Below, one piece after another: positions 7,741-32,009 of a DNA stretch of 32,151 nt. A program made the translations under genes and the position numbers. The stretch spans positions 1-32,151 of the forward strand of contig JAGBCL010000050.1 of assembly GCA_018110825.1 (NCBI GenBank). The letters are read 5' to 3'. The stretch's first letter is position 1; every line of letters starts with the position of its first letter. Origin of the DNA: Oscillospiraceae bacterium. GTDB lineage: Bacteria > Bacillota > Clostridia > Oscillospirales > Ruminococcaceae. The notes under the pieces were generated by a model. The model searched no databases, was not told where the DNA came from, and worked only from the letters and a program-made list of their open reading frames with translations.

Positions 7741-9138
7741 ATGGACTCTGACGGGTTTACCGGAATTATTCTTATTCTGGTGCTTATTCTTTACAAGGCT
7801 TTCTGCACGGTCTGCGAAACTGCTGTGACGGAAATCGATGACAGAAAAGTTAAAAATTCGCAGGAAAAAATCAAGGGCAAGGCTACGCTTCTCAAGCTGC
7901 TGGAAAAGCCTTCAAGGCTGGTTACTGCTTTTGCGGTTAACAGGGTTATGTCGGCGATTGGTATTTCGTGGCTGGCGATGATTTGCTTTATTGACCCCCT
8001 TGCAAATGCGGTATATGAGCTTTGCGGCGGTCGTATGGCTTCGGAGGATTACATTGAAGCTGTTTACCTGATACCTGCGGCGGTTGTCATTCTGCTGGCG
8101 ACGGTTCTTGTGATAACGGTTTTCTGTGAGGGCATACCCAAGAAAATTGCGGTAAAGGGCGGCGACAGGCTTGCTTACTTCTGCAGCGGCTTTGTAAAAT
8201 ATCTGGTTATTATTCTTACGCCGATGACTGCGCTTTCGTCGCTGCTTATCAGGGTGTTCTCCCCCGTTTTCGGTGTGGGCGGAATTCCTGAGCGTGATGT
8301 TGTTACCGAGGAGGAAATTCTCCTGATGGTTGACGCGGGCAACGAAACGGGCGTTATTGAGGAATCACAGCGTGAGATGATTAACAACGTATTCGAGTTT
8401 GATGACCTTATTCTTTCGGATGTTATGACTCACCGCACGGATATTGTTGCGGTTGAGAATACGGAAGGGGTTTCCGAGGTTGTCAATGCTTCAATCGGCA
8501 GCGGCTTTTCACGTATTCCTGTGTATGAGGACACGGTTGACCACATCATCGGAATCATTTGCGTGAAGGACCTGCTTTGTCTGGTGGGTTCAGAGGCTGC
8601 GGAAAGTGCCGATATCAAAAGCTTTGTCAGGGATATAATCTATCTTCCCGAATCTGTCCCCTGCGGTGAGGCGTTCAAGCGGCTTACGGCGGAGAAAATG
8701 CAGATGGCTGTTGTTATTGATGAGTACGGCGGCACTGCGGGACTGGTGACAATGGAGGATATTGTCGAGACTATTGTGGGCAATATTCAGGACGAATACG
8801 ATGACGAGGCGGAGGAAATCATTCAGATTTCCGAAAGCGTATACACAATTGACGGCACGGCTGACCCGGAGGAGATTATGGGTAAGCTGGGTGCTGTACT
8901 TCCCGAGGAGGATAAGTTTGACACGATGAGCGGCTTTATTGTGGAGCTGCTGGGACGTATCCCCGAGGAGGACGAAAATCCGTCGGTTGAGTACGGGAAC
9001 ATTCTGTTTACTGTGCTGCTGACTGAGGATAAGTGCATTACAAAAATCAAGGCGCAGATACTTGAAAGCGATGTGCATTCGGAAAACAATAATGATAAAT
9101 CAAAAAAGGAGAGCTTGAAAAATGAAGAAGAAAATTAG
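7741..9138 (+). CDS. CNNM/HlyC-CorC family membrane protein with CBS pair
   Basis: 465 residues. An N-terminal DUF21/CNNM transmembrane domain (about residues 1-180, several hydrophobic segments, and a conserved-looking basic-region EGIPKKIAVK) is followed by a linker EEEILLMVDAGNETGVIEESQREMI and a CBS-domain pair (VMTHRTDIVAVE to VVIDEYGGTAGLVTMEDIVE). A small C-terminal CorC_HlyC domain is last. Family members are linked to magnesium or other cation transport and are often misnamed hemolysins. The ATG at 7741 has GGAAGGAAG upstream; a TTG two codons earlier is less likely. The 3' end overlaps the next lipoprotein gene by 17 bases, implying translational coupling. Confidence 0.9.
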   Translation: MDSDGFTGIILILVLILYKAFCTVCETAVTEIDDRKVKNSQEKIKGKATLLKLLEKPSRLVTAFAVNRVMSAIGISWLAMICFIDPLANAVYELCGGRMASEDYIEAVYLIPAAVVILLATVLVITVFCEGIPKKIAVKGGDRLAYFCSGFVKYLVIILTPMTALSSLLIRVFSPVFGVGGIPERDVVTEEEILLMVDAGNETGVIEESQREMINNVFEFDDLILSDVMTHRTDIVAVENTEGVSEVVNASIGSGFSRIPVYEDTVDHIIGIICVKDLLCLVGSEAAESADIKSFVRDIIYLPESVPCGEAFKRLTAEKMQMAVVIDEYGGTAGLVTMEDIVETIVGNIQDEYDDEAEEIIQISESVYTIDGTADPEEIMGKLGAVLPEEDKFDTMSGFIVELLGRIPEEDENPSVEYGNILFTVLLTEDKCITKIKAQILESDVHSENNNDKSKKESLKNEEEN

Positions 9139-10801
9139 TCTTATTCTTGCGTTTGCTATGGCGGCAACTATGCTTGCAGGCTGTAAGAAAACAGATGAGG
9201 ATTCCGCGGGACTTCCTGAGACAGCTACCACTACAGCGATGGCTGAGCTTACTCAGATGACTGTTGCTGAAACAGAGGCTACAACAGTTCCTGAGGTTAC
9301 AATGCCTGAGGAAACTACAACAACCGCTGAGGAAACTACTGTTGCTGAAAGCGAAACAGAGGCTGAAACCACTACTGTTTCCGAAACTGAAACAGAGGCT
9401 GAAACTACTACGGTATCCGCTTCCGAAACTGCTGAAACAACAACTGCTGCAGAGTGGAACGAAACAGAAATCAGCGAAACTTATTACATAGCTTCAAACT
9501 GTTACTCAAGAAAGAAGGCTATTGTTGGTTCAGAGTCCGTAAAGCAGTACAAGGCAGGCACTGAAATCAACATCGTTGCTGCAACAGATACAGGCTACTA
9601 CAAGCTTGCTGACGGCACATTCATTCACTCCGATTATGTAACTGATGAAAAGCCTGCTGCTGTTACTACAGCACCGAAGAAGGAAGAAGATACAGAGGCT
9701 ACTACTACAAAGAAGAAGGATAATTCCTCTTCCAAGAAGCCTGTAAGCACTTCCTACAAGGTAAGCTATGAGGACAGATATCCTTATCAGCAGCTTTCCT
9801 CCGAGGAAAAGGAACTTTATAGAAACATGGTTGAATCCGCTGAAAACTTTGAAACAACAGTTGTTGTTCCAAGCGGCGTTCGCGGCGACACTATCGACAA
9901 GGTTTACACAATCCTCTTCAACAACGAGCCACAGCTCTTCTGGCTCTCCACTTCCTACCCAAGCTTCAGCTTTGCAACAGGCAACCTTGAACTTGAATTC
10001 GTTATCGACCGTGACGAGGCAGAGGCTGTTCAGAAGGAAATCGACGCTACTGTTGCAGACGTTATGGCTGTAGTAGGCGGTTATTCCCAGACTGTAAGCC
10101 GTCTCAAGGCTATCTACGACTGGGTTATCACAAACAATGACTTCTCACTCCAGGGCAACTTCGAAACCTGCGGCGTTTACGACAGCCTTACAGGCGGCGG
10201 CTCCCTCCAGTGTCAGGGCTACGCTAAGACATTCCAGTACCTCTGCGATGTTGCAGGTATTGAGTGTATGGTTGTAAACGGCAACAACACCGAGGGCAGC
10301 ACTCACGCATGGAACGTTGTTTACTGCGAAAACGGCTATTACATTGTTGATACAACATGGGGCGACCCAATCCTCAGCTATGCTAAGAGCAACTATGTAA
10401 AGTACAACTTCTTCCTTGCAAACGATGAAATGATCAAGGATACTCACCTTAATCAGGGTGCTCCTGTAAGAAACAGCGGTTCTGCTCTTTACCTCTATGA
10501 TGCTCCTGCTTGTACAAAGACAGCTTGCTACTACTTCAAGGCTTACAACAAGGAATATGACGACCTCGATTCCGCTGTAAAGGGTATGTATGCTGAAATC
10601 GACGCAGCTCTTGAATCCGGAAAGAACGTTGCTCACATCAGAGTTACTGACTATGACCTCTGGGAAACACTTACTTCCAAGGAATACTGGTCCAAGTTCC
10701 AGAACTACGCTAAGTCCAAGAGCAGCAAGGTTACAGCAACCACACGTCAGACAATAAATGCAGAAGGCTGTCTTGTTGTTCACTATGACCTTAAATATTA
10801 A
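9122..10801 (+). CDS. Transglutaminase-like lipoprotein 1, with Thr/Glu linker and SH3-like domain
   Basis: 559 residues. A lipoprotein signal ends in LAGC with the lipidated Cys at 21. A Thr/Glu-rich linker (about 30-115) includes two copies of SETEAETTTV. An SH3b-like segment (about 122-178, from YYIASNCYSRKKAIVG) is followed by a second short linker, then the catalytic domain with C364 (LQCQGYA), H395 (THAWN) and D410 (IVDTTW), and a ~110-residue C-terminal domain. It probably sits on the outer membrane face, reaching into the wall through the linker. Family members include transglutaminases and proteases, so the reaction is unknown. AAAAGGAG supports the start, which lies inside the end of the CNNM gene. 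Codon use (many CTC, AAC, GGC) suggests high expression. Confidence 0.88.
   Translation: MKKKISLILAFAMAATMLAGCKKTDEDSAGLPETATTTAMAELTQMTVAETEATTVPEVTMPEETTTTAEETTVAESETEAETTTVSETETEAETTTVSASETAETTTAAEWNETEISETYYIASNCYSRKKAIVGSESVKQYKAGTEINIVAATDTGYYKLADGTFIHSDYVTDEKPAAVTTAPKKEEDTEATTTKKKDNSSSKKPVSTSYKVSYEDRYPYQQLSSEEKELYRNMVESAENFETTVVVPSGVRGDTIDKVYTILFNNEPQLFWLSTSYPSFSFATGNLELEFVIDRDEAEAVQKEIDATVADVMAVVGGYSQTVSRLKAIYDWVITNNDFSLQGNFETCGVYDSLTGGGSLQCQGYAKTFQYLCDVAGIECMVVNGNNTEGSTHAWNVVYCENGYYIVDTTWGDPILSYAKSNYVKYNFFLANDEMIKDTHLNQGAPVRNSGSALYLYDAPACTKTACYYFKAYNKEYDDLDSAVKGMYAEIDAALESGKNVAHIRVTDYDLWETLTSKEYWSKFQNYAKSKSSKVTATTRQTINAEGCLVVHYDLKY
9353..9424 (+). repeat. Tandem 36-base coding repeat in lipoprotein 1
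   Basis: Two consecutive copies of a ~36-base unit encode SETEAETTTV. Wobble positions differ between the copies (ACCACTACTGTT versus ACTACTACGGTA), so the peptide is conserved better than the DNA. The repeat lengthens the Thr/Glu linker. Confidence 0.6.
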
Positions 10802-10895
10802 TTAAAATCTATTCGGGGGCGGGGAGATTATATTTCACTCTGCCCCTGTGCGTATTTGTAAATATGCATGAAATTACCGTGAAAGGAAGATTACT
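10802..10895 (+). other. Gap between lipoproteins 1 and 2 with a GC-rich imperfect stem
   Basis: A G-rich run near 10815 can pair imperfectly with CTCTGCCCC near 10841, but no U-run follows. It is at most a weak attenuator or mRNA-stabilising stem. The ribosome binding site AAAGGAAG of the next gene follows. Confidence 0.35.
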
Positions 10896-12269
10896 ATGAA
10901 GAATACAAGAAAAAAATATGCGGTTCTTGCTGTGCTTATGGCGGCTTCAATGCTCGCTTCAGGCTGCGGAAAAGACGGCGGCAATGCTGAGGAAACATCA
11001 ATATCGGTAAATGTCATCGGCGGCGACAGCGCTGATGCAGGCGAGTCAATGGAAACTGCTGTTGTTACCGATGCAAACGGCGAGGCTGTTACCGGCTTTG
11101 ACGGAAATGTCCTTACAGAAGTTGTTACTGAACCGGGTGCAGCTGAAACTGCTCCTACTGAAACTCTCAGCGAGGAAGATATTCTTGCTGCCATGACTAC
11201 AACCGAGCAGGCTGAAAAGCCTTCTGTAAACGTAAGTCAGAACGCAGGCGTTCGCTATGCGTATGAGACTCTTACAGACCGCGAAAAGGAACTCTATGAT
11301 ATGATTTATCAGGGCGTTTGCGACCTGCGTTACAAAATCTGCGCTGAGGACGCTTATACCCTTGAAGAATGGGTTAAGGTGTACGGTCTTGTTTACAATC
11401 AGGAGCCTGAGCTTTTCTACATGGGTTCAAAAATCAAGGTCGGCAAGCTTTTCTACCTGACCAAGGATTCAGAAACAATCAATCAGATGCAGAAGGATAT
11501 CGATGCGGTTGCTGATAAGCTTGTTACAGAAGCAAACGGCAAGTCCTCAACATTCGAAAAGCTCAAGGTTTTCCACGATTTCCTCGTGCTCAACTCTTCA
11601 TTTGAGCTTATTGAAGGCGACGATTTCGATTATAACGCTTCCATCTACAACGCTTTTGGCAGCGGTGAGCCTCAGGGCAATATCCAGTGTGCAGGCTATG
11701 CAAAGGCTATGCAGTACCTCTGCGACAAGGCAGGTATCTCCTGCATGGTTGTAACAGGTGAAACTGCTGAAGGTCAGACACACGCATGGAACGTTGTTGA
11801 CGTTGACGGAGTATGGTACAACCTTGACGCTACATGGGATGACCCTCTCCTCAGCACACCTAACTATGCTCAGCTCCGTTACAACTACTTCCTTGTTCCT
11901 GACAAGTTCATGCACGACATTACCCACTTCCATGTAAGCCAGAAGAAAATGTCCAACGGCGATTATGTTACATACTTCGAACCGCCTGCATGTACAGAAA
12001 CAGCTGAGAACTACTTTGTAAAGAGCGGTATTGTATACAGCGATTTCGATGCTGCGGAAGCTGCTATCAAGGCTGAAATCGAAAGTGCTGCAAAGGACGG
12101 CTCCAGAACAGCTCAGATTATGGTTGCTTCAAAGGAACTCTATGACCAGATTTACGCAAACAGACTTGAATACAACAAGTTCGCAAAGACATTCGACGGC
12201 GTAAAGGGTGTAAACGATGAATGCAGCGAAGTAATGCTCCTGCTTGAATTTGATGTAATTTACAACTAA
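10896..12269 (+). CDS. Transglutaminase-like lipoprotein 2
   Basis: 457 residues with a lipoprotein signal (MAASMLASGC, Cys 24) and an acidic Ala/Glu/Thr linker to about residue 115. The shared paralogue body starts at YAYETLTDREKELYDMIYQG. The catalytic triad is C265 (NIQCAGYA), H296 (QTHAWN) and D311 (NLDATWDD), and a C-terminal domain begins near the ENYF motif. The spacing C-31-H-15-D is identical to lipoprotein 1, and codon use is also of the highly biased type. It lacks the SH3-like insert. AAAGGAAG lies eight bases before the ATG. It is the closest relative of lipoprotein 1 in the cluster by shared motifs. Confidence 0.88.
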   Translation: MKNTRKKYAVLAVLMAASMLASGCGKDGGNAEETSISVNVIGGDSADAGESMETAVVTDANGEAVTGFDGNVLTEVVTEPGAAETAPTETLSEEDILAAMTTTEQAEKPSVNVSQNAGVRYAYETLTDREKELYDMIYQGVCDLRYKICAEDAYTLEEWVKVYGLVYNQEPELFYMGSKIKVGKLFYLTKDSETINQMQKDIDAVADKLVTEANGKSSTFEKLKVFHDFLVLNSSFELIEGDDFDYNASIYNAFGSGEPQGNIQCAGYAKAMQYLCDKAGISCMVVTGETAEGQTHAWNVVDVDGVWYNLDATWDDPLLSTPNYAQLRYNYFLVPDKFMHDITHFHVSQKKMSNGDYVTYFEPPACTETAENYFVKSGIVYSDFDAAEAAIKAEIESAAKDGSRTAQIMVASKELYDQIYANRLEYNKFAKTFDGVKGVNDECSEVMLLLEFDVIYN

Positions 12270-12279
12270 GAACTAAGAG

Positions 12280-13431
12280 ATGATTAAAAGAATAATGTGT
12301 GCGGTCCTTGCGGCATCGGCTGCGGTGCTTGCAGGCTGTGCAAAGATAGATGAAAGCCCCCGTGCGGCAGAGGCGGAGATTTCTCCGTCGGCGTCTGCGG
12401 AAAATCAGGTTTTTGTTTCGCCTGTCTATGAGTCCCTCAGCAATGAGGAAAAGGTGCTTTATGACACGGTGAAGAATGCGGTGATAAATTTCGAGGAATT
12501 TGCGGAATTTGAACAGCCCGCTGACAGAGAAACCGTGCGGAAGGTTTACCGTCTGGTTTACTCCCAGGAAAGAATCTATTTCTGGCTGAGCAGCATTTTC
12601 TATGCTCCTGACAGCGAGGTTTCGGCACTGAGGCTCAATTATCTTTACGAAAAAGAGGACGCGGAGCTGAAACGTGCGGAGCTGGATTTTGCGGCGTCAA
12701 CCATTATCGGTGAGCTTCCCAAGGGTGCTTCCGATTTTGAAAAGGTCGTTTATTTCCACGATAAAATCGTAAAGGACTGTGCTTTTTCTTCCGATGAGCA
12801 GCATGTCAACTCCGCTTACGGTGTTCTCGTGACAGGCTACGGTCAGTGCGAGGGCTACGCGGCGGCAATGGCACTTCTTTGCGACAAGGCGGGGATTCCT
12901 AACTTTATTGTCTGCGGAACAAATTCCGAGGGAACAAGTCATGCGTGGAATAAAATCCGTCTTGACGGCGAATGGTATAATGTGGACTGCACATGGGACG
13001 ACCCGATTCTGAAAAGAAATAATCCTGATTTCGTGCGTCACGATTATCTGCTTGTCAAGGACAGCGAAATCGAAGGTCTGACTCATTTTACAGATAACCT
13101 TTACGGCGGTCTTGTTTCCTGCACGGCTGATAAGCTCAACTATTTCAGCGGAGCAGGCAAAATGTTCAGGACAGCTGACGAAGGCATCGAGGAGCTGACA
13201 AGACAGCTGAAGGAAAAGGGTGTTGCGGGAGAGCGTGAGGTTGAGGTAAGATTTTCCGACGTGAACGCTTTTTACTCCGCAATGGGAATTCTTTTCGACA
13301 ACGGCGGAATGAAGGATATTATTGAGGATACCAACGAGCGTTACGGTACAAAAATCCGTTCCGCTTACAAGCATAACAACGAAGATTTGAGCATAATACA
13401 TATTTCGCTGATTTATGAAGGCGATGAATGA
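12280..13431 (+). CDS. Transglutaminase-like lipoprotein 3, short linker
   Basis: 383 residues with lipobox VLAGC (Cys 20) and almost no linker, so the catalytic body starts near residue 45 (SPVYESLSNEEKVLYDTV). The triad is C190 (GQCEGYA), H221 (TSHAWN) and D236 (NVDCTWDD). It starts only 10 bases after lipoprotein 2 and has no clear ribosome binding site, so it probably depends on coupled translation. Codon use shifts toward GCG, CTG and GTG compared with genes 1 and 2. The enzymatic reaction is not evident from sequence. Confidence 0.86.
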   Translation: MIKRIMCAVLAASAAVLAGCAKIDESPRAAEAEISPSASAENQVFVSPVYESLSNEEKVLYDTVKNAVINFEEFAEFEQPADRETVRKVYRLVYSQERIYFWLSSIFYAPDSEVSALRLNYLYEKEDAELKRAELDFAASTIIGELPKGASDFEKVVYFHDKIVKDCAFSSDEQHVNSAYGVLVTGYGQCEGYAAAMALLCDKAGIPNFIVCGTNSEGTSHAWNKIRLDGEWYNVDCTWDDPILKRNNPDFVRHDYLLVKDSEIEGLTHFTDNLYGGLVSCTADKLNYFSGAGKMFRTADEGIEELTRQLKEKGVAGEREVEVRFSDVNAFYSAMGILFDNGGMKDIIEDTNERYGTKIRSAYKHNNEDLSIIHISLIYEGDE

Positions 13432-13449
13432 TTACTCAGGCAGGTTTTT

Positions 13450-13480
13450 CAATCAGTGACAGTAAGCTGCTGATTGAGCC
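13450..13480 (+). promoter_or_regulatory. Intercistronic hairpin before lipoprotein 4
   Basis: The arms CAATCAG and CTGATTG, extended by an imperfect CAGG/CCTG pairing, form a stem between genes 3 and 4. There is no U-tract, so it is more likely an mRNA stability or partial attenuation element than a full terminator. Confidence 0.4.
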
Positions 13481-13518
13481 TGAACCCTATTTACTGAACT
13501 GCGGAAAGGAGCCGTTTG

Positions 13519-15030
13519 ATGAAAATAAGAAAAGGATATGCATTGATATTTGCGGCAATTCTTTCTGCTTTGCTTATGTGCGGCTGCAATGAGGAAAAGG
13601 AGCCTGAATGGGAGGAAACCCTGCCTCTTACCGTTTCGGAAAGCTCTGTCCCGACGGTTGTTTGCGAGACGGAGGAAACGGTAACCACTACCCCTGAGCC
13701 GACTATTGTTACTACGGAAAAAACCAAGCGTACAGCTGCTACGGAAACAACTCCCGAGCTTGCAACGACCACCACGCCTGCTCCTACGGAGTCAACTATT
13801 CCGACGGACATTTCCAATGTTCCGATTTCCGAATTCACAAGCACGACAGCTGTTGACCCGACGACGGAAATGAAGCCGTCAACTACCCCTTCGGAAACTA
13901 CACCGGAGAACCCTCCCCTTTCCGAAATCGAAAGCACGACAACTGCTGCAGGTACGGAAGTCGATACAATCGGGAAAACCTATTCCGCTGACGAAATTCA
14001 GCGTCCGTACAGCTATAATCAGCTTAACGAAAAACAGCAGTATATCTATGATGCGGTGGTTTCTGCGGCTGAAAGGCTCAAAACCGATGTAAGCCTTTCT
14101 ACGGTTATGGAAATTACTGCGGAGGAATACTGCGAGGTTTATCAGCAGATTTACAACGATGAACATGCTTTGTTCTATATCGACACGAAAATGCAGTACG
14201 CAATGAATACAAATACCAAGAAGCTTGCTTCGGCAATTATCTTCTATAAGTACAGCGATGAGAAGATTATCGAAATGCAGAAGGCTATCGAGGAAGAGGC
14301 TAAAAAAATTCTTGACGGGGTTACTCCCGATATGACGGAGTATGATATCGTCAAGTATTTCCACGATTATATTGCGTCAACGGTTGTGTACGACGATACT
14401 GCGGAAAACTGCCGTGACATATACGGCGTTTTCGTTGACAAAAAGGCAATCTGCGGCGGCTATTCCAAGGCATTTTCCTATCTTTGCGACAAGGTGGGAA
14501 TTGAGACGGTTACGGTAACAGGCGATGCTGACGGCGAAGCACATATGTGGAACATGGTTAAAATTGACGGTCAGTGGTATAATATTGACGTAACCTATGC
14601 GGTAACCGAGTCCGAGGCAGGCAGCTATGTAAGATATGACTATTTCTGCGTAACTGACGAGATGCTCAAGGATACACGAACAATTTACGAGCAGATTTAC
14701 ACCTACCCCGAGGCAACTGCTGAGGACTGCAACTACTATGTGAAAAACGGTCTTATTGCAGACAGCTGGGACGATGCAAGGGCTATGCTTATAAACAGAA
14801 TTGCCGAAATCTCAAAGACGGACAGCTTTGTTGTTCAGATTAAATGTTCTTCCCGTGAGGTTTACGATGATGTTGTGTTCAAGCTTTTTGATGCAAGCGA
14901 AAAGCAGGCTATCAAGATTCTTGAAGAAGCACTTCCGAATGCGGAAAAGAAATACAACTGCAATGCTGTAAACTACAGTCAGGACAAAACTTCCTGCGTG
15001 GTAAAGCTGTTTTTGGAATACACAGAATAA
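13519..15030 (+). CDS. Transglutaminase-like lipoprotein 4 with long Thr/Pro linker
   Basis: 503 residues. The lipobox is LMCGC (Cys 23). A ~125-residue Thr/Ser/Pro/Glu-rich linker with many TTT and TPE runs precedes the paralogue body (RPYSYNQLNEKQQYIYDAV). The triad is C312 (AICGGYS), H342 (AHMWN) and D357 (NIDVTYA). The Trp after the Asp found in the other paralogues (D-x-T-W) is Tyr here. The ATG has AAAGGAG seven bases upstream, and a TTG one codon earlier is disfavoured. The linker resembles the wall-spanning linkers of Ruminococcus surface proteins. Confidence 0.87.
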   Translation: MKIRKGYALIFAAILSALLMCGCNEEKEPEWEETLPLTVSESSVPTVVCETEETVTTTPEPTIVTTEKTKRTAATETTPELATTTTPAPTESTIPTDISNVPISEFTSTTAVDPTTEMKPSTTPSETTPENPPLSEIESTTTAAGTEVDTIGKTYSADEIQRPYSYNQLNEKQQYIYDAVVSAAERLKTDVSLSTVMEITAEEYCEVYQQIYNDEHALFYIDTKMQYAMNTNTKKLASAIIFYKYSDEKIIEMQKAIEEEAKKILDGVTPDMTEYDIVKYFHDYIASTVVYDDTAENCRDIYGVFVDKKAICGGYSKAFSYLCDKVGIETVTVTGDADGEAHMWNMVKIDGQWYNIDVTYAVTESEAGSYVRYDYFCVTDEMLKDTRTIYEQIYTYPEATAEDCNYYVKNGLIADSWDDARAMLINRIAEISKTDSFVVQIKCSSREVYDDVVFKLFDASEKQAIKILEEALPNAEKKYNCNAVNYSQDKTSCVVKLFLEYTE

Positions 15031-15037
15031 CACTATG

Positions 15038-15059
15038 ATAAGGGGCAGATGCCCCTTAT
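15038..15059. promoter_or_regulatory. Perfect inverted repeat between lipoproteins 4 and 5
   Basis: Ten-base arms (ATAAGGGGCA and its complement) are separated by two bases, eight bases after the stop of gene 4. No U-run follows. It could be a protein-binding dyad or a hairpin tuning expression of gene 5. Confidence 0.5.
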
Positions 15060-15091
15060 TGAATTTACTTCGCCGAAAGGGGTGATGGAAT

Positions 15092-16282
15092 TTGCATAAG
15101 CGGATATATGCGGCTGTAATCGCCTCAGCCTTGCTGCTGACGGGCTGCTCGGAAAACGAAACTTCCGAGGAAGGCTACAAGATTTTTTCCAATGGCACAT
15201 ATATTGTTCAGCAGGAAGAGCCTGTTGACGGCGGCGAAGAGTATGATTATGCGGATTTCTACATCCCAAATGGCATGGTCAACGATTATTACAGCAGCAG
15301 CTTTTCAGATGAAGAAAAGGAACTTTACAACAGTATACTTGAAGTGTTGGGAGGACTTGAGGACAAGACTCCGCTGAAAACAGACGCGGCGGTTTACGAA
15401 AAGATGCTGAAAACGATAAGAGTTGAAAATCTGGCATTCCCCCATATTACGAAATACTGGACGGAATATAACGGCGGCGAGTTTGAGGTTGCGATAACCT
15501 ACCGAATGACAGCGGACGAGATAAGCAGCATGAATATGGCTGCCGAAAAGGCGGCAAAGAAAATCATTGACAGCCTTGACCCCGATATGGACGATTATGA
15601 AAAGCTGAAATATTTCCATGACTATCTGATACTGAACTGCGAAACGGATAAAAGCTATGCCTTTTCCGATACGGTGTATGGTGCACTGGTTGAAAACAAG
15701 GCACTTTGTGAGGGTTACTCAAAAGCTTTTGCGTATCTGTGCAACCTGGCGGGAATTGAAAATACGATTGTAACGGGAGAAACCTACGTGCCGCACATGT
15801 GGAACATGGTCAAGCTTGACGGCAACTGGTATCACGTTGATGTAACATGGGATAAGCCTGACGACCAGCTGCACAAAATGTTTCCCGATATAATACTTTA
15901 CCAGTATTTTATGGTTACGGACGCAGTAATAGAAAACACCCACATCATTGACGGAGCACCGTATATTCCGCCGCAGGCATTCGGTACAGCGGAGAATTAC
16001 TTTGAAAGAGAGGGTGCAGATATTTCCTCGAAGGAGGAACTGCTGACAGTTTCGGAGAACGCAATTCTCAGTGCGGTAAAGACGGGCAAGCCGAGTGCGA
16101 TGGTAAAGTTTGAAACAACGGACGTGTTTATTTCCTGCAAGAACGACCTGTCCAATGAGGAACTGTTCGATTCAATAATCGAGAAAGCAAATCTTGAGTA
16201 CGGCAAGAACATAAAACTCAGCTGGACGGATTTTTACGGGCAGTACAGAATCCTGACATTTGTAATTGAATATATAGAATAA
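15092..16282 (+). CDS. Transglutaminase-like lipoprotein 5
   Basis: 396 residues from a TTG start, preceded by AAAGGGGTG. A nearby ATG (15085) is out of frame and hits a stop after four codons, so TTG is the only good start. The lipobox is LLTGC (Cys 19), with a short acidic linker and then a body starting SDEEKELYNSILEVL. The triad is C206 (ALCEGYS), H235 (PHMWN) and D250 (HVDVTW). The loop between Cys and His is two residues shorter than in genes 1-3. It is the last gene of the array and is followed directly by a strong terminator. Confidence 0.87.
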   Translation: MHKRIYAAVIASALLLTGCSENETSEEGYKIFSNGTYIVQQEEPVDGGEEYDYADFYIPNGMVNDYYSSSFSDEEKELYNSILEVLGGLEDKTPLKTDAAVYEKMLKTIRVENLAFPHITKYWTEYNGGEFEVAITYRMTADEISSMNMAAEKAAKKIIDSLDPDMDDYEKLKYFHDYLILNCETDKSYAFSDTVYGALVENKALCEGYSKAFAYLCNLAGIENTIVTGETYVPHMWNMVKLDGNWYHVDVTWDKPDDQLHKMFPDIILYQYFMVTDAVIENTHIIDGAPYIPPQAFGTAENYFEREGADISSKEELLTVSENAILSAVKTGKPSAMVKFETTDVFISCKNDLSNEELFDSIIEKANLEYGKNIKLSWTDFYGQYRILTFVIEYIE

Positions 16283-26666: not shown

Positions 26667-28448
26667 TTATGCAATCTGCATTTCAGACAGTTTGTCCGAA
26701 TTACTTGTTGTTGATTGCAGCCTGTGCGGGTGACTCAATATGGACGCACTTTCACCCAACCGTATCACAGCGCAGTCCTCATCAGGCTCGGCGGTGCTGT
26801 ATTTGTTATCTTCGCTGGGGTTAATCGTAACATTCCAAGTATACTTCCGATTATCAGCAACAACGGAACGGATATGCTCATTAAGTCTGCCCCTCTGGAA
26901 AACAGGGGAGGAGCTTTCAAGCATTCTGCCAAGCTGTTTTGCTACCGCAGATATTTCCGAAATACAGCTATTCATAACACTCTCTTGCTCGCTCTGACGT
27001 TCTCTCTGTTCGCTGAGCTTTTTTATTTCCTCGTTATATTCCGTTTTCATTACCACAAACTCATCTCTTGTGATATTCCCGTCAGCAAACATTGTAATCA
27101 GACTTTTTTTGCGTTCTTCGACTTTATCAATCTGACTTTCAATGAAAATAACGCTTTCGGAACAGCTCTGCTTTGATGCAGCCTTGTAATAATCACAGAT
27201 GCTGTCAAGAGTTTCGAGAAGCTCTTTTCTTTTGCTTTGCCATACCGACTGTAACAAAAGCTCTGCCATCATATCCATTTTCCATTGAGTGATAGAAGCC
27301 TCATTGCAAAATCCGTCGCCGTCTTTATGCTCCGCTGCCTTGCCGTTGTTCACCTGATTGTAGCAGACATAATTGTAGGTGATATTGCCGTCCTTATCCT
27401 TGTGATAACGATTTTTGCGGAAAGAAGAACCACATACACAGCGCAGTTTATGCACCCATAAATCTGTTGAAATGCGGTTGCTTTTCTTTACAGTTTCGCC
27501 GTTCTGAACAAGAGTACTTTTGCGTTTGGAATTTAATATCTTGTTGCACTTTTCCCATTGCTCCTCGGAAATAATCGGTTCAAAATCGCCCTTGACATAT
27601 ACATAACTGCTCCTGTCAAGATTGTGAATACGTTTCTGCTCCAGATAATTGTTGACGTGAGATTTGTTATAACAGATACAGCCCTTGTATGTAGCATTTG
27701 CAATAACACGGGTGATATAGGATACATCCCAGCGGACGAGTCCTGATGAATTTTTACGTCCACGCTCAGTCAGCACCTTTGCAATTTTAGCACCGCCCAA
27801 GCCCTGCTCGTAGAGGTCAAATATCATTCTGACAGTTTCAGCCTGTTCAGGATTGATAGTATAACTCTCACCGGCCTTGCGGTCGTATCCGAGAATGTTT
27901 CCGCTTCCATACAGCATTTTGTTTTCACGGCTTATTTTCTGTCCCGCTTTTACTCTTTCAGAAACCTTTCGGCTTTCTTCCTGAGCGAGAGTCGCCATAA
28001 GAGAAAGTCTGAGTTCACCGTCTCCGTCCATTGTCCAGATGTTGTCCTCAACGAAATACACCTCAACGCCGATATTTTTAAGTTCACGGGTAAAGTTTAG
28101 AGTATCAACAGTATTACGAGCAAATCTGCACACCTCACGGGTTACAATCAAATCGAATTTTCCAGACTTAGCGTCCTCAATCATTCTGAGGAAAGAAGGT
28201 CTTTTCTTCGCCTGAGTTCCTGTGATGCCTTCGTCAATGTACTTGTCGATTACATTCCAGTTCGGATGATATTTCGCTTGGTCACTGTACCACTGCATCT
28301 GATTTTCAAGAGCAGAGAGCTGAGCCTCGTGTTCCGTTGAAACTCGTCCGTAGAAGACAACTGTGCGTTCACGATTACGGTCAAGCTTTGTGTAGTCCAT
28401 AAAGCTGTTGAATGGTTTTACCCCTGACATGGTTGTTGTGTTACTCAT
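26667..28448 (-). CDS. Large serine recombinase (site-specific integrase/resolvase family)
   Basis: 593 residues. The catalytic domain begins VVFYGRVSTEHEAQ with nucleophile Ser37, and contains the conserved SLMATLAQEESRKVSERVKAG helix with its arginines. A recombinase domain (about 190-300: YGSGNILGYDRKAGESYTINPEQAETVRMIFDLY) is followed by a zinc ribbon (RCVCGSSFRKN ... YNYVCYNQ ... FCNEA) and a coiled coil of about 80 residues. Such enzymes integrate and excise phages and conjugative or mobilizable elements through attP/attB crossover. AAAGGA precedes the ATG. I cannot identify its att sites with certainty. The last ~25 residues overlap a sequence resembling another 3' end in a different frame, so the C-terminus may have been altered. 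Confidence 0.93.
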   Translation of the reverse strand: MSNTTTMSGVKPFNSFMDYTKLDRNRERTVVFYGRVSTEHEAQLSALENQMQWYSDQAKYHPNWNVIDKYIDEGITGTQAKKRPSFLRMIEDAKSGKFDLIVTREVCRFARNTVDTLNFTRELKNIGVEVYFVEDNIWTMDGDGELRLSLMATLAQEESRKVSERVKAGQKISRENKMLYGSGNILGYDRKAGESYTINPEQAETVRMIFDLYEQGLGGAKIAKVLTERGRKNSSGLVRWDVSYITRVIANATYKGCICYNKSHVNNYLEQKRIHNLDRSSYVYVKGDFEPIISEEQWEKCNKILNSKRKSTLVQNGETVKKSNRISTDLWVHKLRCVCGSSFRKNRYHKDKDGNITYNYVCYNQVNNGKAAEHKDGDGFCNEASITQWKMDMMAELLLQSVWQSKRKELLETLDSICDYYKAASKQSCSESVIFIESQIDKVEERKKSLITMFADGNITRDEFVVMKTEYNEEIKKLSEQRERQSEQESVMNSCISEISAVAKQLGRMLESSSPVFQRGRLNEHIRSVVADNRKYTWNVTINPSEDNKYSTAEPDEDCAVIRLGESASILSHPHRLQSTTSNSDKLSEMQIA

Positions 28449-30007: not shown

Positions 30008-30050
30008 TTTTCTCAAAAAAGTCTCAGAAAAATCTCAAAAAAGTCTCACG
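30008..30050. repeat. Short tandem repeats of an 11-base TCTCA-A(n) unit
   Basis: Three to four tandem units of about 11 bases (TCTCAAAAAAG, TCTCAGAAAAA, TCTCAAAAAAG, TCTCACGG). They are phased near one helical turn, so the A-runs would bend DNA on one face, upstream of Bro-N promoter unit B. Confidence 0.6.
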
Positions 30051-30071
30051 GTAAAAACGCCTGCCCGATTT

Positions 30072-30114
30072 GTTACGCACCTCGGAATATAACGACGCAG
30101 TTTGTTACGCACCT
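30072..30114. repeat. GTTACGCACCT boundary motif, copies 3 and 4
   Basis: Two direct copies (30072-30082 and 30104-30114), 32 bases apart, each preceded by TTT. The second stands before the flavin reductase promoter exactly as copy 1 stands before the GNAT promoter. Confidence 0.75.
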
Positions 30115-30191: not shown

Positions 30192-30755
30192 ATGGACAAG
30201 ATTAGCATTTCGCCTGAATGGGTATTTAGCCCACAGCCTATGTATATCATAGGAACTAAGAATGAAGATGGTTCTCCGAACTTCTGTATTATCACTTGGC
30301 TCGGTTTTTCATTTGACGGTGGTCCGAATATTATGATGACGATCGGCGGAACAAAGCTGACAAAGACAAATATACTCCGCGAAAAGAAATTTTCTGCAAA
30401 TATGATAACAGAAGATAATCTGTGGTTGGCGGATTATTTCGGCAACACCAACGGCGAAGACGGAGAGAAAAACGCTCTTCCATATGGTTATGAGAAAGGC
30501 AAAACTGTCGATGTTCCCATACTTAATGAATGTCATTGGTCGTATGAGTGTGAGGTTACAAAAGTAGTCGAGCTTGACGGAGCACACTTATTCTTGGCAG
30601 CAGTCAAGAACATACAGATTGATAAAGACTATTCAGGTATGGATATGAAAAAGATTGATTTGACGAAAATTAGACCTGCTGTTTATGCACCGTATAATTA
30701 TTTTTCCATTGGAGAAAAGTTAGGCGAAATGGGAGAATGGAAATCTCATTTATAA
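30192..30755 (+). CDS. Flavin reductase-like / FMN-binding split-barrel protein
   Basis: 187 residues starting MDKISISPEWVFSPQPMYIIGTKNEDGSPNFCIITW. The pattern of a Pro/Tyr-rich start, a short-chain GTKNEDGSPN turn and later KTNILREKKFSANMITED is that of flavin reductase-domain proteins that bind FMN in a split barrel. They reduce flavins or act as small-molecule reductases; the partner here is unknown. GGAGG lies eight bases before the ATG, and an in-frame TTG eleven codons earlier overlaps that site and is rejected. It has its own promoter and terminator and no functional link to its neighbours, which fits a cassette-like acquisition. Confidence 0.82.
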   Translation: MDKISISPEWVFSPQPMYIIGTKNEDGSPNFCIITWLGFSFDGGPNIMMTIGGTKLTKTNILREKKFSANMITEDNLWLADYFGNTNGEDGEKNALPYGYEKGKTVDVPILNECHWSYECEVTKVVELDGAHLFLAAVKNIQIDKDYSGMDMKKIDLTKIRPAVYAPYNYFSIGEKLGEMGEWKSHL

Positions 30756-30781
30756 ATGCATTTCTTCTAAAGCTCTGTTTC

Positions 30782-30792
30782 GTTACGTACCT
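30782..30792. repeat. Boundary motif, copy 5 (GTTACGTACCT)
   Basis: One base differs from the other four. Read on the minus strand it follows ATAATAGGT, much as copy 2 follows the Bro-N stop (ATAAGAGGT), with the same trailing CGTAACGAA (one base differs inside the motif). Confidence 0.6.
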
Positions 30793-30803
30793 ATTATCGC
30801 AAA

Positions 30804-30850
30804 CCTCCTTACTGAAAAATATTATAAAACGTTCTGTAATTATAATTGTA
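30804..30850 (-). promoter_or_regulatory. Orphan copy of the Bro-N operator/-10 module with a ribosome binding site but no gene
   Basis: Minus strand TACAAT (30845-30850), the dyad TAAAACGTTCTG (30825-30836) at the same eight-base spacing as units A and B, and then AAGGAGG (30804-30810). No start codon with an open frame follows. Instead, a Bro-N-like 3' boundary (ATAATAGGTACGTAACGAA) comes almost at once. It looks like a deleted antirepressor gene. Confidence 0.5.
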
Positions 30851-30852
30851 TC

Positions 30853-30891
30853 ATAGTCGTTGTTTCGCTTTCGGGACAACGACTATTTTTC
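30853..30891 (+). terminator. Rho-independent terminator downstream of the flavin reductase gene
   Basis: Perfect 11-base arms ATAGTCGTTGT and ACAACGACTAT around a 12-base loop, followed by TTTTT. Confidence 0.88.
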
Positions 30892-31016
30892 TGAAAAAAT
30901 ATTTTTTCATCTGACTTTCAATCGAGCGTAAACGAGATTTCGGTCAAGGGGTTTGGGTTCTCCCAACAAGTTTTTTGTATTTGTCTGCGCTGACGATTTT
31001 CGGAGAAAAGAGGGCA

Positions 31017-31279
31017 GTGTATAGACAAATGCTATGCTTGCTGTCAACGAAGTTGCAGAAAGCATAGTCGCAAAAAAATGACGGTGTAGCTACAACGGCG
31101 ATGCTTGCTCTCAACAGAATAAGGTTGAGGGCGAGCATTTATTCTTTCAGATTTCTCTGAAAAACGCCGAGTGTGGCCACAAGTCATATGCTTGCTCTCA
31201 ATGATAATAACAGAGAGCAGGCATACGGTTTTTGCAAAAACATGTCTGTGTCTATACACAGGCGATGCTTGCTGTCAAC
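31017..31279. repeat. Four-unit structured array, candidate structured RNA or DNA-hairpin element
   Basis: Four units share TGT-N4-ACA, exactly six variable bases, then ATGCTTGCT[G/C]TCAA, with motif starts at 31034, 31101, 31188 and 31265. Units 1-3 fold into hairpins: 31032-31067 (eight outer pairs plus inner CTG/CAG and CAAC/GTTG), 31101-31138 (15 pairs, two G-U) and 31188-31224 (12 pairs, one G-U). Unit 4 lacks its right arm. The TGT-N4-ACA boxes of units 2 and 3 are perfect palindromes. Unit 1 GTGTATAGACA is the exact complement of unit 4 TGTCTATACAC (31249-31259), so an 11-bp helix could close the whole domain. Function unknown. Confidence 0.75.
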
Positions 31280-31332
31280 GGGAACTTAAAATAAAGTTTG
31301 ATGACTTTTTCAAGAATGCTTTGTTAGAAATG

Positions 31333-31361
31333 TTGTGTTTCAGGCACGACTGTGATATAAT
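31333..31361 (+). promoter_or_regulatory. Promoter of the methyltransferase gene
   Basis: TTGTGT (31333-31338) and TATAAT (31356-31361), 17-base spacer, with TGTGA before the -10. Confidence 0.7.
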
Positions 31362-31394
31362 GAAATCAAAGAAATTATTCCCGAGGTTACAGCA

Positions 31395-32009
31395 ATGAAT
31401 AATACAATCGCAAGCCACTATGATATTCTGATAGATGAAAACAACGACCCTGTCCACGACCCTGAGCCGTTGAAAGAGTATATGGACAAGTGGGATGGAC
31501 AGGGTTTTATAAACAAAATGGAACTTAATGCCGAAAAATCTGTTCTTGAAATTGGAGTTGGAACAGGCAGGCTTGCTGTCAGAACTGCACCTCTGTGCAA
31601 GGAATTCTATGGCATTGATATTTCTACGAAAACAATCGAACGTGCAAAAGAAAATCTCAGCAGTTTTGAAAACGTAGAGCTGATATGTAGTGATTTTCTT
31701 GAGTATAACTTTACCCGACTGTTTGATGTAGTTTATTCCTCGCTGACCTTTATGCATATTTCAGAAAAGCAAAAGGCGTTTAATCTAATTGGAAAACTGC
31801 TTGCACCAAACGGAAAATTTGTATTGTCAATTGATAAAAATCAAGATGAGTTTATTGATACTAATACAAGTAAAATTAAAGTTTATCCTGATAAGCCCAG
31901 TGACATTGAAGAATATATTTCTAATATAAATCTGAAATTGTCAGAGCATTACGAAACGGAGTTTGCGCATATTTTTGTATGCGAATATACTCCAAATATT
32001 AAAAGCTGA
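31395..32009 (+). CDS. Class I SAM-dependent methyltransferase
   Basis: 204 residues. Motif I is VLEIGVGTGRLAV (about residues 50-62), the acidic ribose-binding residue lies in YGIDIS, motif II-like CSDFLEYNF is next, and motif IV-like FDVVYSSLTFMHI and LLAPNGKFVLSID complete a methyltransferase_11/25-type fold. The substrate is unknown. GAGGT upstream supports the ATG. It is followed after 12 bases by an AraC-like gene on the same strand, probably in one operon, which suggests the regulator controls or senses the methylated substrate pathway (inference). Confidence 0.9.
   Translation: MNNTIASHYDILIDENNDPVHDPEPLKEYMDKWDGQGFINKMELNAEKSVLEIGVGTGRLAVRTAPLCKEFYGIDISTKTIERAKENLSSFENVELICSDFLEYNFTRLFDVVYSSLTFMHISEKQKAFNLIGKLLAPNGKFVLSIDKNQDEFIDTNTSKIKVYPDKPSDIEEYISNINLKLSEHYETEFAHIFVCEYTPNIKS

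Follow-up and report, generated by a model that had tools for sequence, protein, structure and literature searches.

Organization of the Locus

The DNA analyzed in this work, referred to below as the window, is a stretch of 32,151 nucleotides that represents contig C37 of an Oscillospiraceae genome (G000). An array of four units of the form TGT-N4-ACA-N6-ATGCTTGCTSTCAA is present close to its right side, with the contig ending 0.9 kb right of the array. The units start at positions 31018, 31085, 31172, and 31249 of the plus strand and their spacings of 67, 87, and 77 bases are those reported in a first-pass annotation of this DNA. A 30-letter pattern of the unit, with up to 3 mismatches allowed, has exactly four matches in the window, compared with a mean of 0.01 and a maximum of 1 in 100 dinucleotide shuffles, and in the whole genome ATGCTTGCTSTCAA is found without mismatches only at these four sites (2 further sites have 1 mismatch). 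The units do lie within the interval 31017..31279 assigned to them earlier, but the conserved sequence is broader, extending from about 30944 to 31315. The features of this region are as follows, the nic positions in all four cores being predicted by analogy with the sequence RYGCTTG|C discussed below.

26667..28448, minus strand: large serine recombinase (PF00239, PF07508), with relatives beside arrays in L059, L070, L072, and L074
29266..29784, minus strand: gene for a BRO-N protein, common to the array loci L060, L065, and L068
30192..30755, plus strand: flavin reductase-like gene, cargo, left of the array and within the L068 alignment
30948..30970, plus strand: IR2 hairpin GGGGTTTGGGTTCTCCCAACAAG, which adjoins mobC in relatives, where the motif precedes the cores
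31018..31047, plus strand: putative oriT core 1, IR1 centre ATAG, class I, with box ATGCTTGCT at 31034-31042 and predicted nic at 31040/31041
31032..31067, plus strand: mask 1, a predicted hairpin joining nic box 1 to a downstream arm
31085..31114, plus strand: putative oriT core 2, AGCT, class II, with box at 31101-31109 and predicted nic at 31107/31108
31101..31138, plus strand: mask 2, a predicted hairpin over nic box 2
31172..31201, plus strand: putative oriT core 3, GGCC, class II, with box at 31188-31196 and predicted nic at 31194/31195
31188..31224, plus strand: mask 3, a predicted hairpin over nic box 3
31249..31278, plus strand: putative oriT core 4, CTAT, class I, terminal and unmasked, with box at 31265-31273 and predicted nic at 31271/31272
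31280..31315, plus strand: conserved tail with TTTGATGACTTTTTCAA, shared with relatives
31395..32009, plus strand: methyltransferase gene, cargo, right of the array

Elsewhere in the window, five consecutive ORFs with transglutaminase-like domains are found at 9122-16282, an 11-base step (TCTCAAAAAAG) is present in three tandem copies at 30011-30048, and a motif TTTGTTACGCACCT is repeated at 30069-30082, 30101-30114, and 30779-30792. L045 and L067 have look-alikes of the latter motif (GGTGCGTAACGAA) downstream of their arrays.

Relatives of the Array and Probable Identity of Its Units

An exact pattern scan identified 42 stretches in the genome contigs and one in the viral contigs, from which four (L047, L052, L055, and L071) were removed as chance hits, as judged by eye from their flanks. 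The 39 stretches that were kept are arrays of one to four units from records titled Ruminococcus, Ruminiclostridium, Oscillospiraceae, or Clostridia and from one untitled viral record; most of the genomes compared are metagenome assemblies. The 42 stretches in the genome contigs, counted before the chance hits were dropped, come close to the dispersed repeat of gut Clostridia that had been among the candidates put forward earlier. DNA similarity searches with the window array gave no match in plasmids or phages, and those with a single-core relative and with the oriT of L091 gave none in plasmids. Most of the relatives share a conserved block, in which a hairpin resembling GGGTTTGGG..CCCAACAAG is followed by the units and then by a tail containing TTGA..CTTTTTCAA. 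Chimeric units are also present (e.g., L060 and L051), which suggests that exchange between cores happens, with break points that fit relaxase action and other recombination alike. In L065 and L069, from the same assembled genome, a unit has apparently been split by an insertion that lies within its nic box, has the ends ATATTTTCCCATTGTGCAC, and is accompanied by a duplication of CATATG.

The mobC-mobA pair is absent from the window, but in seven single-unit relatives divergent mobC and mobA genes are found to the left of the unit. In L048, the mobC product is a NikA-like/MobC protein (PF21983, PF05713) and that of mobA a MOBP relaxase (PF03432), as determined by Pfam. In MobA loci from the entire order, a GGGTTTGGG hairpin, an inverted repeat, and the sequence RTGCTTGCT occur in this sequence before mobC in many but not all cases (the pattern search found no core in L114-L116), and the inverted repeats show compensatory changes (GCAAGTGTGGCCACACTTGC, GGAAGTGGGTACCCACTTCC, GCCAGTGGGTACTCGCTGGC, and GCAAACGGGTACTCGTTTGC). 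The Tn1549-type enterococcal element in pMG2200 reads GGGAGTGGCTACACTCCC-T-ATGCTTGCT. The nic of Tn1549 is listed as RYGCTTG|C (tables A3/A4 of PMC7755788), and this is fitted by the box ATGCTTGCT in 4/4 units of the window. Core, spacing, and IR2 of the window type adjoin mobC-mobA in the seven single-core relatives, in the order-wide MobA loci and in the pMG2200 element. IR1 is weak in the array family to which the window belongs; of the 52 distinct units in that family, 51-52 retain the inner TGT/ACA pairs and only 13-32 the outer five. In their box, spacing, and neighborhood and in the position of IR1, the putative cores clearly agree with a known type of oriT. Because their box, 6-base gap, and dyad position are those of a Tn1549-type oriT, the window units are very probably Tn1549-type MOBP oriT cores, with their function deduced from these resemblances.

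Two Classes of IR1 and Their Relationship to MobA

The four central bases of IR1 fall into two classes, one consisting of ATAG, CTAT, AAAG, CTTT, and CTAG (class I) and the other of GGCC, AGCC, GGCT, AGCT, GACC, and GACT (class II). No class I/class II hybrid was observed in 83 units, with one unit of L061 at 7925 (CTGCTTGCT) left out of the class counts. Every one of the 19 multi-unit arrays in the window family contains both classes (12 of 12 distinct strings; permutation P 0.014, ancestry ignored). The 10-bp palindromes described earlier for units 2 and 3 are present. It had also been proposed that units 1 and 4 could close the domain by a long-range pair; however, of the five four-unit arrays of this family (the window, L046, L050, L062, and L078) only the window shows this exact complementarity, over 10 bases, so that the pair is not conserved, and it arises because the two 10-base boxes are one dyad in opposite orders.

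The two classes are also reflected in the relaxases. At the MobA loci of the window family, the centre ATAG goes with the MobA proteins of L048, L058, and L077, which are 83-99% identical, and AGCC goes with those of L042, L044, L049, and L111 (92-100% identical), while identity between the two groups is 79-84%. On a tree of 32 MobA proteins the IR1 centre requires 10 changes, the least possible being 9 and the shuffled mean 19.9, and none of the 200 shuffles was as low (ancestry ignored). As a strict filter for MobA-side cores missed G-T pairs, it was not used, and the tree is based upon another core list with four added labels. Exceptions to the correspondence are L053, where AGCC occurs with a distant MobA, L090, and the three GGCT rows. 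The array in the window thus mixes two classes of candidate cores whose mobA-side relatives go with two sister MobA clades, as is evident from the sequences compared. Since IR1 centres and relaxase clades largely correspond, the centre could serve to predict which helpers an element can use.

Opposite-strand arrangements were observed in the genome G370 (Lapin-023 bin56), where five loci (L037, L040, L061, L063, and L075) contain two opposite-strand cores 244-245 bases apart, with the classes mixed in 4/5 of them; no match to PF03432 was found in this genome. An exact AAGTGCGCCCT box, which we take to be of the MOBQ nic type, follows the last core in L059, L072, and L079, at 105-106 bases from that core's start, and it is also found in L074 (one mismatch) and, on the other strand, in L061 and L075.

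Predicted Pairing of the Internal Nic Boxes with Downstream Arms

In the predicted folds, the hairpins of the window join each internal nic box to a downstream arm and the last box stays open. Three hairpins of 12-15 pairs had been noted previously and the folds agree with this, giving 15, 15, and 12-13 pairs for the three internal units; the swap of G-C for C-G at the S position was likewise recovered, one hairpin type having G-C there and the others C-G. For the family as a whole, using DNA parameters, the nic-box pairing of internal units averaged 0.88 compared to 0.62 with shuffled downstream sequence (30 distinct units, 21 of them above 0.8). The corresponding values were 0.52 and 0.49 for terminal units (17 distinct) and 0.51 and 0.49 for single units (25 distinct, with only L041 above 0.8). 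The only terminal unit paired above 0.8 is that of L065, which is probably in reality internal because the next unit has been split by the insertion described above, its other side apparently being L069 of the same assembled genome. Counts of the predicted mask pairs for 43 distinct internal boxes, which are taken from predicted folds and hence lean to pairs, and in which related arrays are not independent, show variation in both partners and were as follows: at position 1, A-T 25, T-A 4, G-C 1, and none 13; at position 10, C-G 20, G-C 11, A-T 4, and none 8; at position 12, C-G 25, T-A 6, A-T 2, G-C 2, and none 8. The spacings (67-69, 77, and 87-88) were also considered with regard to helical phasing, but differences in loop length fit equally well and no claim is made for it.

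Independent Arrays in Other Families of the Order

A two-box pattern had matches in 41/394 genomes of the order, of which 27 were set aside either as microsatellites or because no IR1 preceded the box. True arrays, recognized by IR1 and by eye since the automatic core finder missed cores with weaker IR1, are present in 13 genomes besides the window's own, from 8 families (14/394 with the window's own, the order being evenly sampled). The locus L014 (G099, from another family) contains four cores about 70 bases apart whose inverted repeats differ, and its boxes 1-3 have complementary arms and box 4 has none. The masked design is seen in ten arrays from 9 genomes and 7 families, the window's own family included. 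Pairing of their internal boxes was 0.87 compared to 0.54 for shuffled sequences (15 boxes, 12 at p<=0.05) and that of their terminal boxes 0.52 compared to 0.35 (10 boxes, 4 at p<=0.05); in L122, L139, and L269 the last box also pairs, with a distant arm. For cores beside MobA the values were 0.29 and 0.27 (19 boxes, one of which is a false overlapping box in L095). For the window, the predicted folds establish that each internal nic box is able to pair with a downstream arm while the last stays open, and the comparison shows that this design recurs in other families.

Compact arrays of a different kind, with 4-7 cores and differing inverted repeats, are located near large serine recombinases in L126, L128, L129, and L268 (families f21 and f22), and no masks were found among their 17 internal boxes (0.51 compared to 0.46). 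In a loose two-box scan of viral contigs, which matched at least 120 stretches, the core finder detected no array among the matches listed, where one hit of an inverted repeat plus box was seen in each of L147, L159, and L191. Type I restriction HsdR genes end directly beside the arrays in L276 (5891-8944) and L285 (5720-8833). TGCT microsatellites longer than 60 bases were encountered in G738:C9, G713:C101, G740:C1, G248:C28, and G061:C2.

Probable Absence of a Relaxase Gene from the Element

No relaxase was found among the 25 window proteins scanned, on a contig that stops 0.9 kb right of the array, and searches of the window with the MobA HMM and for MobC gave no trace of either. The same holds for the 33 multi-core arrays examined, none of which has MobA (PF03432) in the DNA covered (0/33). 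Within the window family, where up to 8 kb was available per locus, MobA is present at 7/27 single-unit compared to 0/19 multi-unit arrays (Fisher p 0.031, ancestry ignored), and it was found at 0/14 of the order-wide array loci, with about 0.1-10 kb covered on each side. A weak MobA hit (E 8.6e-05) was obtained on a short ORF of L040, and MobC without MobA occurs at L046, L078, L073, L283, and L284. The automatic core finder detected no tandem arrays at order-wide MobA loci; at one of these (L088) a second core lies 2.8 kb off on the opposite strand. Nine of the 21 genomes or records searched had no match to PF03432, one of this set being an 8.7-kb viral record. The genome G000 itself has 10 such matches, one below the cut-off and none on C37; an exact cognate MobA was not found in this genome, and the nearest, on contig C119, has another IR1 centre. 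Large serine recombinases were identified at 9/14 order-wide array loci, among 19 ORFs tested. It is thus likely that the element in the window lacks a relaxase gene, and its most plausible description is an integrative mobilizable element, which would keep only an oriT and borrow relaxases from other elements.

Interpretation and Alternative Explanations

Based upon these results, we consider, with a probability of about 0.7, that the array consists of four tandem same-strand Tn1549-type oriT cores and that its element has a serine recombinase, lacks a MOBP relaxase gene on the contig, and borrows relaxases from elsewhere. Several observations count against this reading: IR1 is weak in the family, the four compact arrays have no masks, the last box also pairs in L122, L139, and L269, no exact cognate MobA was found in G000, and the Tn1549 relaxase is reported to be cis-acting. 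The most serious alternative, although an unlikely one, is that only one of the cores is active and that the rest are relics of unequal recombination, with the hairpins as by-products of the way the copies arose. Arrays whose flanks are similar do differ in their number of units, from 1 to 4, chimeric units occur as noted above, and the outer arms of IR1 are degraded. However, a complementary arm has been kept by internal boxes in 30 distinct units, among which several loops are unrelated, as well as at 15 internal boxes of other arrays; the arms covary with the bases adjoining the box, and both classes are retained in 19/19 arrays. It is quite improbable that the units only bind MobC or another regulator and are not nicked. 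TGT-N4-ACA is a dyad that occurs in either orientation, and MobC alone accompanies the five loci listed above, but the box of nic consensus does not vary among the matches and keeps a constant distance, and it is this box, not the dyad, with which the arms pair.

Use of the units as single-strand promoters or priming sites of a leading region (Frpo-like), upon entry into the recipient, would accord with their location on the far side of oriT from mobC-mobA and with the minus strand, which reads TTGASA and in class I units has a TATACA-like end. Against this, which we regard as very improbable, the -35-like part is missing in many relatives with the same core, a promoter scan of 30740-31420 gave 1 site, outside the units, compared to 1.9 in shuffles, and the genes found to the right of arrays can be on either strand. 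Hardly any credence can be given to a structured non-coding RNA or a hairpin leader/attenuator, the first of which had been one of the candidates of the first-pass annotation. The hairpins are stable, their changes include neutral G-T ones and one terminator-like site is found at 31100-31139; but the Rfam scan of the window gave no family at the gathering score, the genes right of the arrays differ in kind and strand, and box, spacing, and neighborhood fit an oriT. The 3 hits at E<=1 over 30900-31400 were two microRNAs and one sRNA, all far below their cut-offs, and a tRNA/tmRNA scan found none. The conservation of the array is accounted for by a DNA transfer origin that adjoins mobC-mobA in the relatives. 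Of the three candidates proposed earlier, two were near, the hairpin recombination substrate because relaxases use an oriT as their substrate for strand transfer, and the dispersed repeat as indicated above, and the structured RNA finds no support.

In duplex DNA, each core of the window would be nicked by a helper relaxase whose IR1 it fits, and the presence of two core classes in one array would widen the range of helpers; the odds that the array in this way serves several helper relaxases (oriT mimicry) appear to us evenly balanced. The transferred single strand is taken to be the plus strand, leading rightward. In this strand the internal boxes would fold away and become poor sites for termination or recombination, so that internal cores would not end transfer early, and the masks would reduce the deletions that relaxases are expected to cause between oriTs of the same strand. 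Circle closure would take place mainly at the open last box. A control of termination or deletion at internal cores by the masks is suggested somewhat tentatively, and more tentative still is the generalization that relaxase-less gut elements widely carry arrays of same-strand origins, differing in relaxase specificity, in which a single-strand switch makes the internal origins start-only.

If this interpretation is correct, oriT arrays would constitute a new architecture for a broader helper range in conjugation, and the single-strand switch would solve the known instability of same-strand oriTs, the masks providing an idea of how several of these can coexist. Part of the answer to which helpers move relaxase-less elements may be in the DNA. 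The arrays, found in 14/394 genomes and in two cases beside type I restriction genes, may represent a genuine path by which genes move among gut Clostridia.

Comparison with Known Systems

In the literature on multiple or tandem oriTs, on oriT hairpins and termination, and on oriT-only gut elements, a coverage from which subscription papers were mostly left out, no description of a masked tandem oriT array was found. The oriT of Tn1549/pMG2200 resembles that of the window in having an IR2 hairpin, an IR1, a 6-base gap, and a ATGCTTGCT box, with mobC-mobA adjoining in the window's relatives. It differs in that it has one core, an IR1 with perfect 9-bp arms and a relaxase in cis, whereas the window has four cores, a weak IR1, and no relaxase gene. 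The Tn1549 relaxase is reported to be cis-acting (PMC6856555), which argues against a simple borrowing of relaxases. Class IV of PMC5704250 and the iOriT of PMC11389934, as described in the portions available, are probably similar to the window element in combining an integrase and an oriT without relaxase, but these portions do not describe a masked tandem array such as that of the window.

Start-capable but masked internal cores are suggested by precedents. In R64 and R1162 the inner arm is required for initiation, whereas the whole repeat is required for termination, and the oriT of pMV158 has been modelled as a hairpin switch able to occlude the nick (both in PMC5863519). As proposed for the window, an alternative hairpin can remove the nick site from the single-stranded form of the pMV158 oriT (MOBV1), although its relaxase family is unrelated and the oriT single. 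A parallel for multiple origins comes from relaxase-less staphylococcal plasmids, for which PMC4652767 reports that pWBG749-type oriTs of different subfamilies are kept together in 58/67 plasmids, and that same-strand oriT pairs are absent, probably because relaxases delete between them. These plasmids are like the window, as it is interpreted here, in that no relaxase is needed in cis and oriT subfamilies are kept together; but their oriT copies are scattered and never two on the same strand, whereas the window contains four same-strand candidate cores within 261 bases, together with predicted masks.
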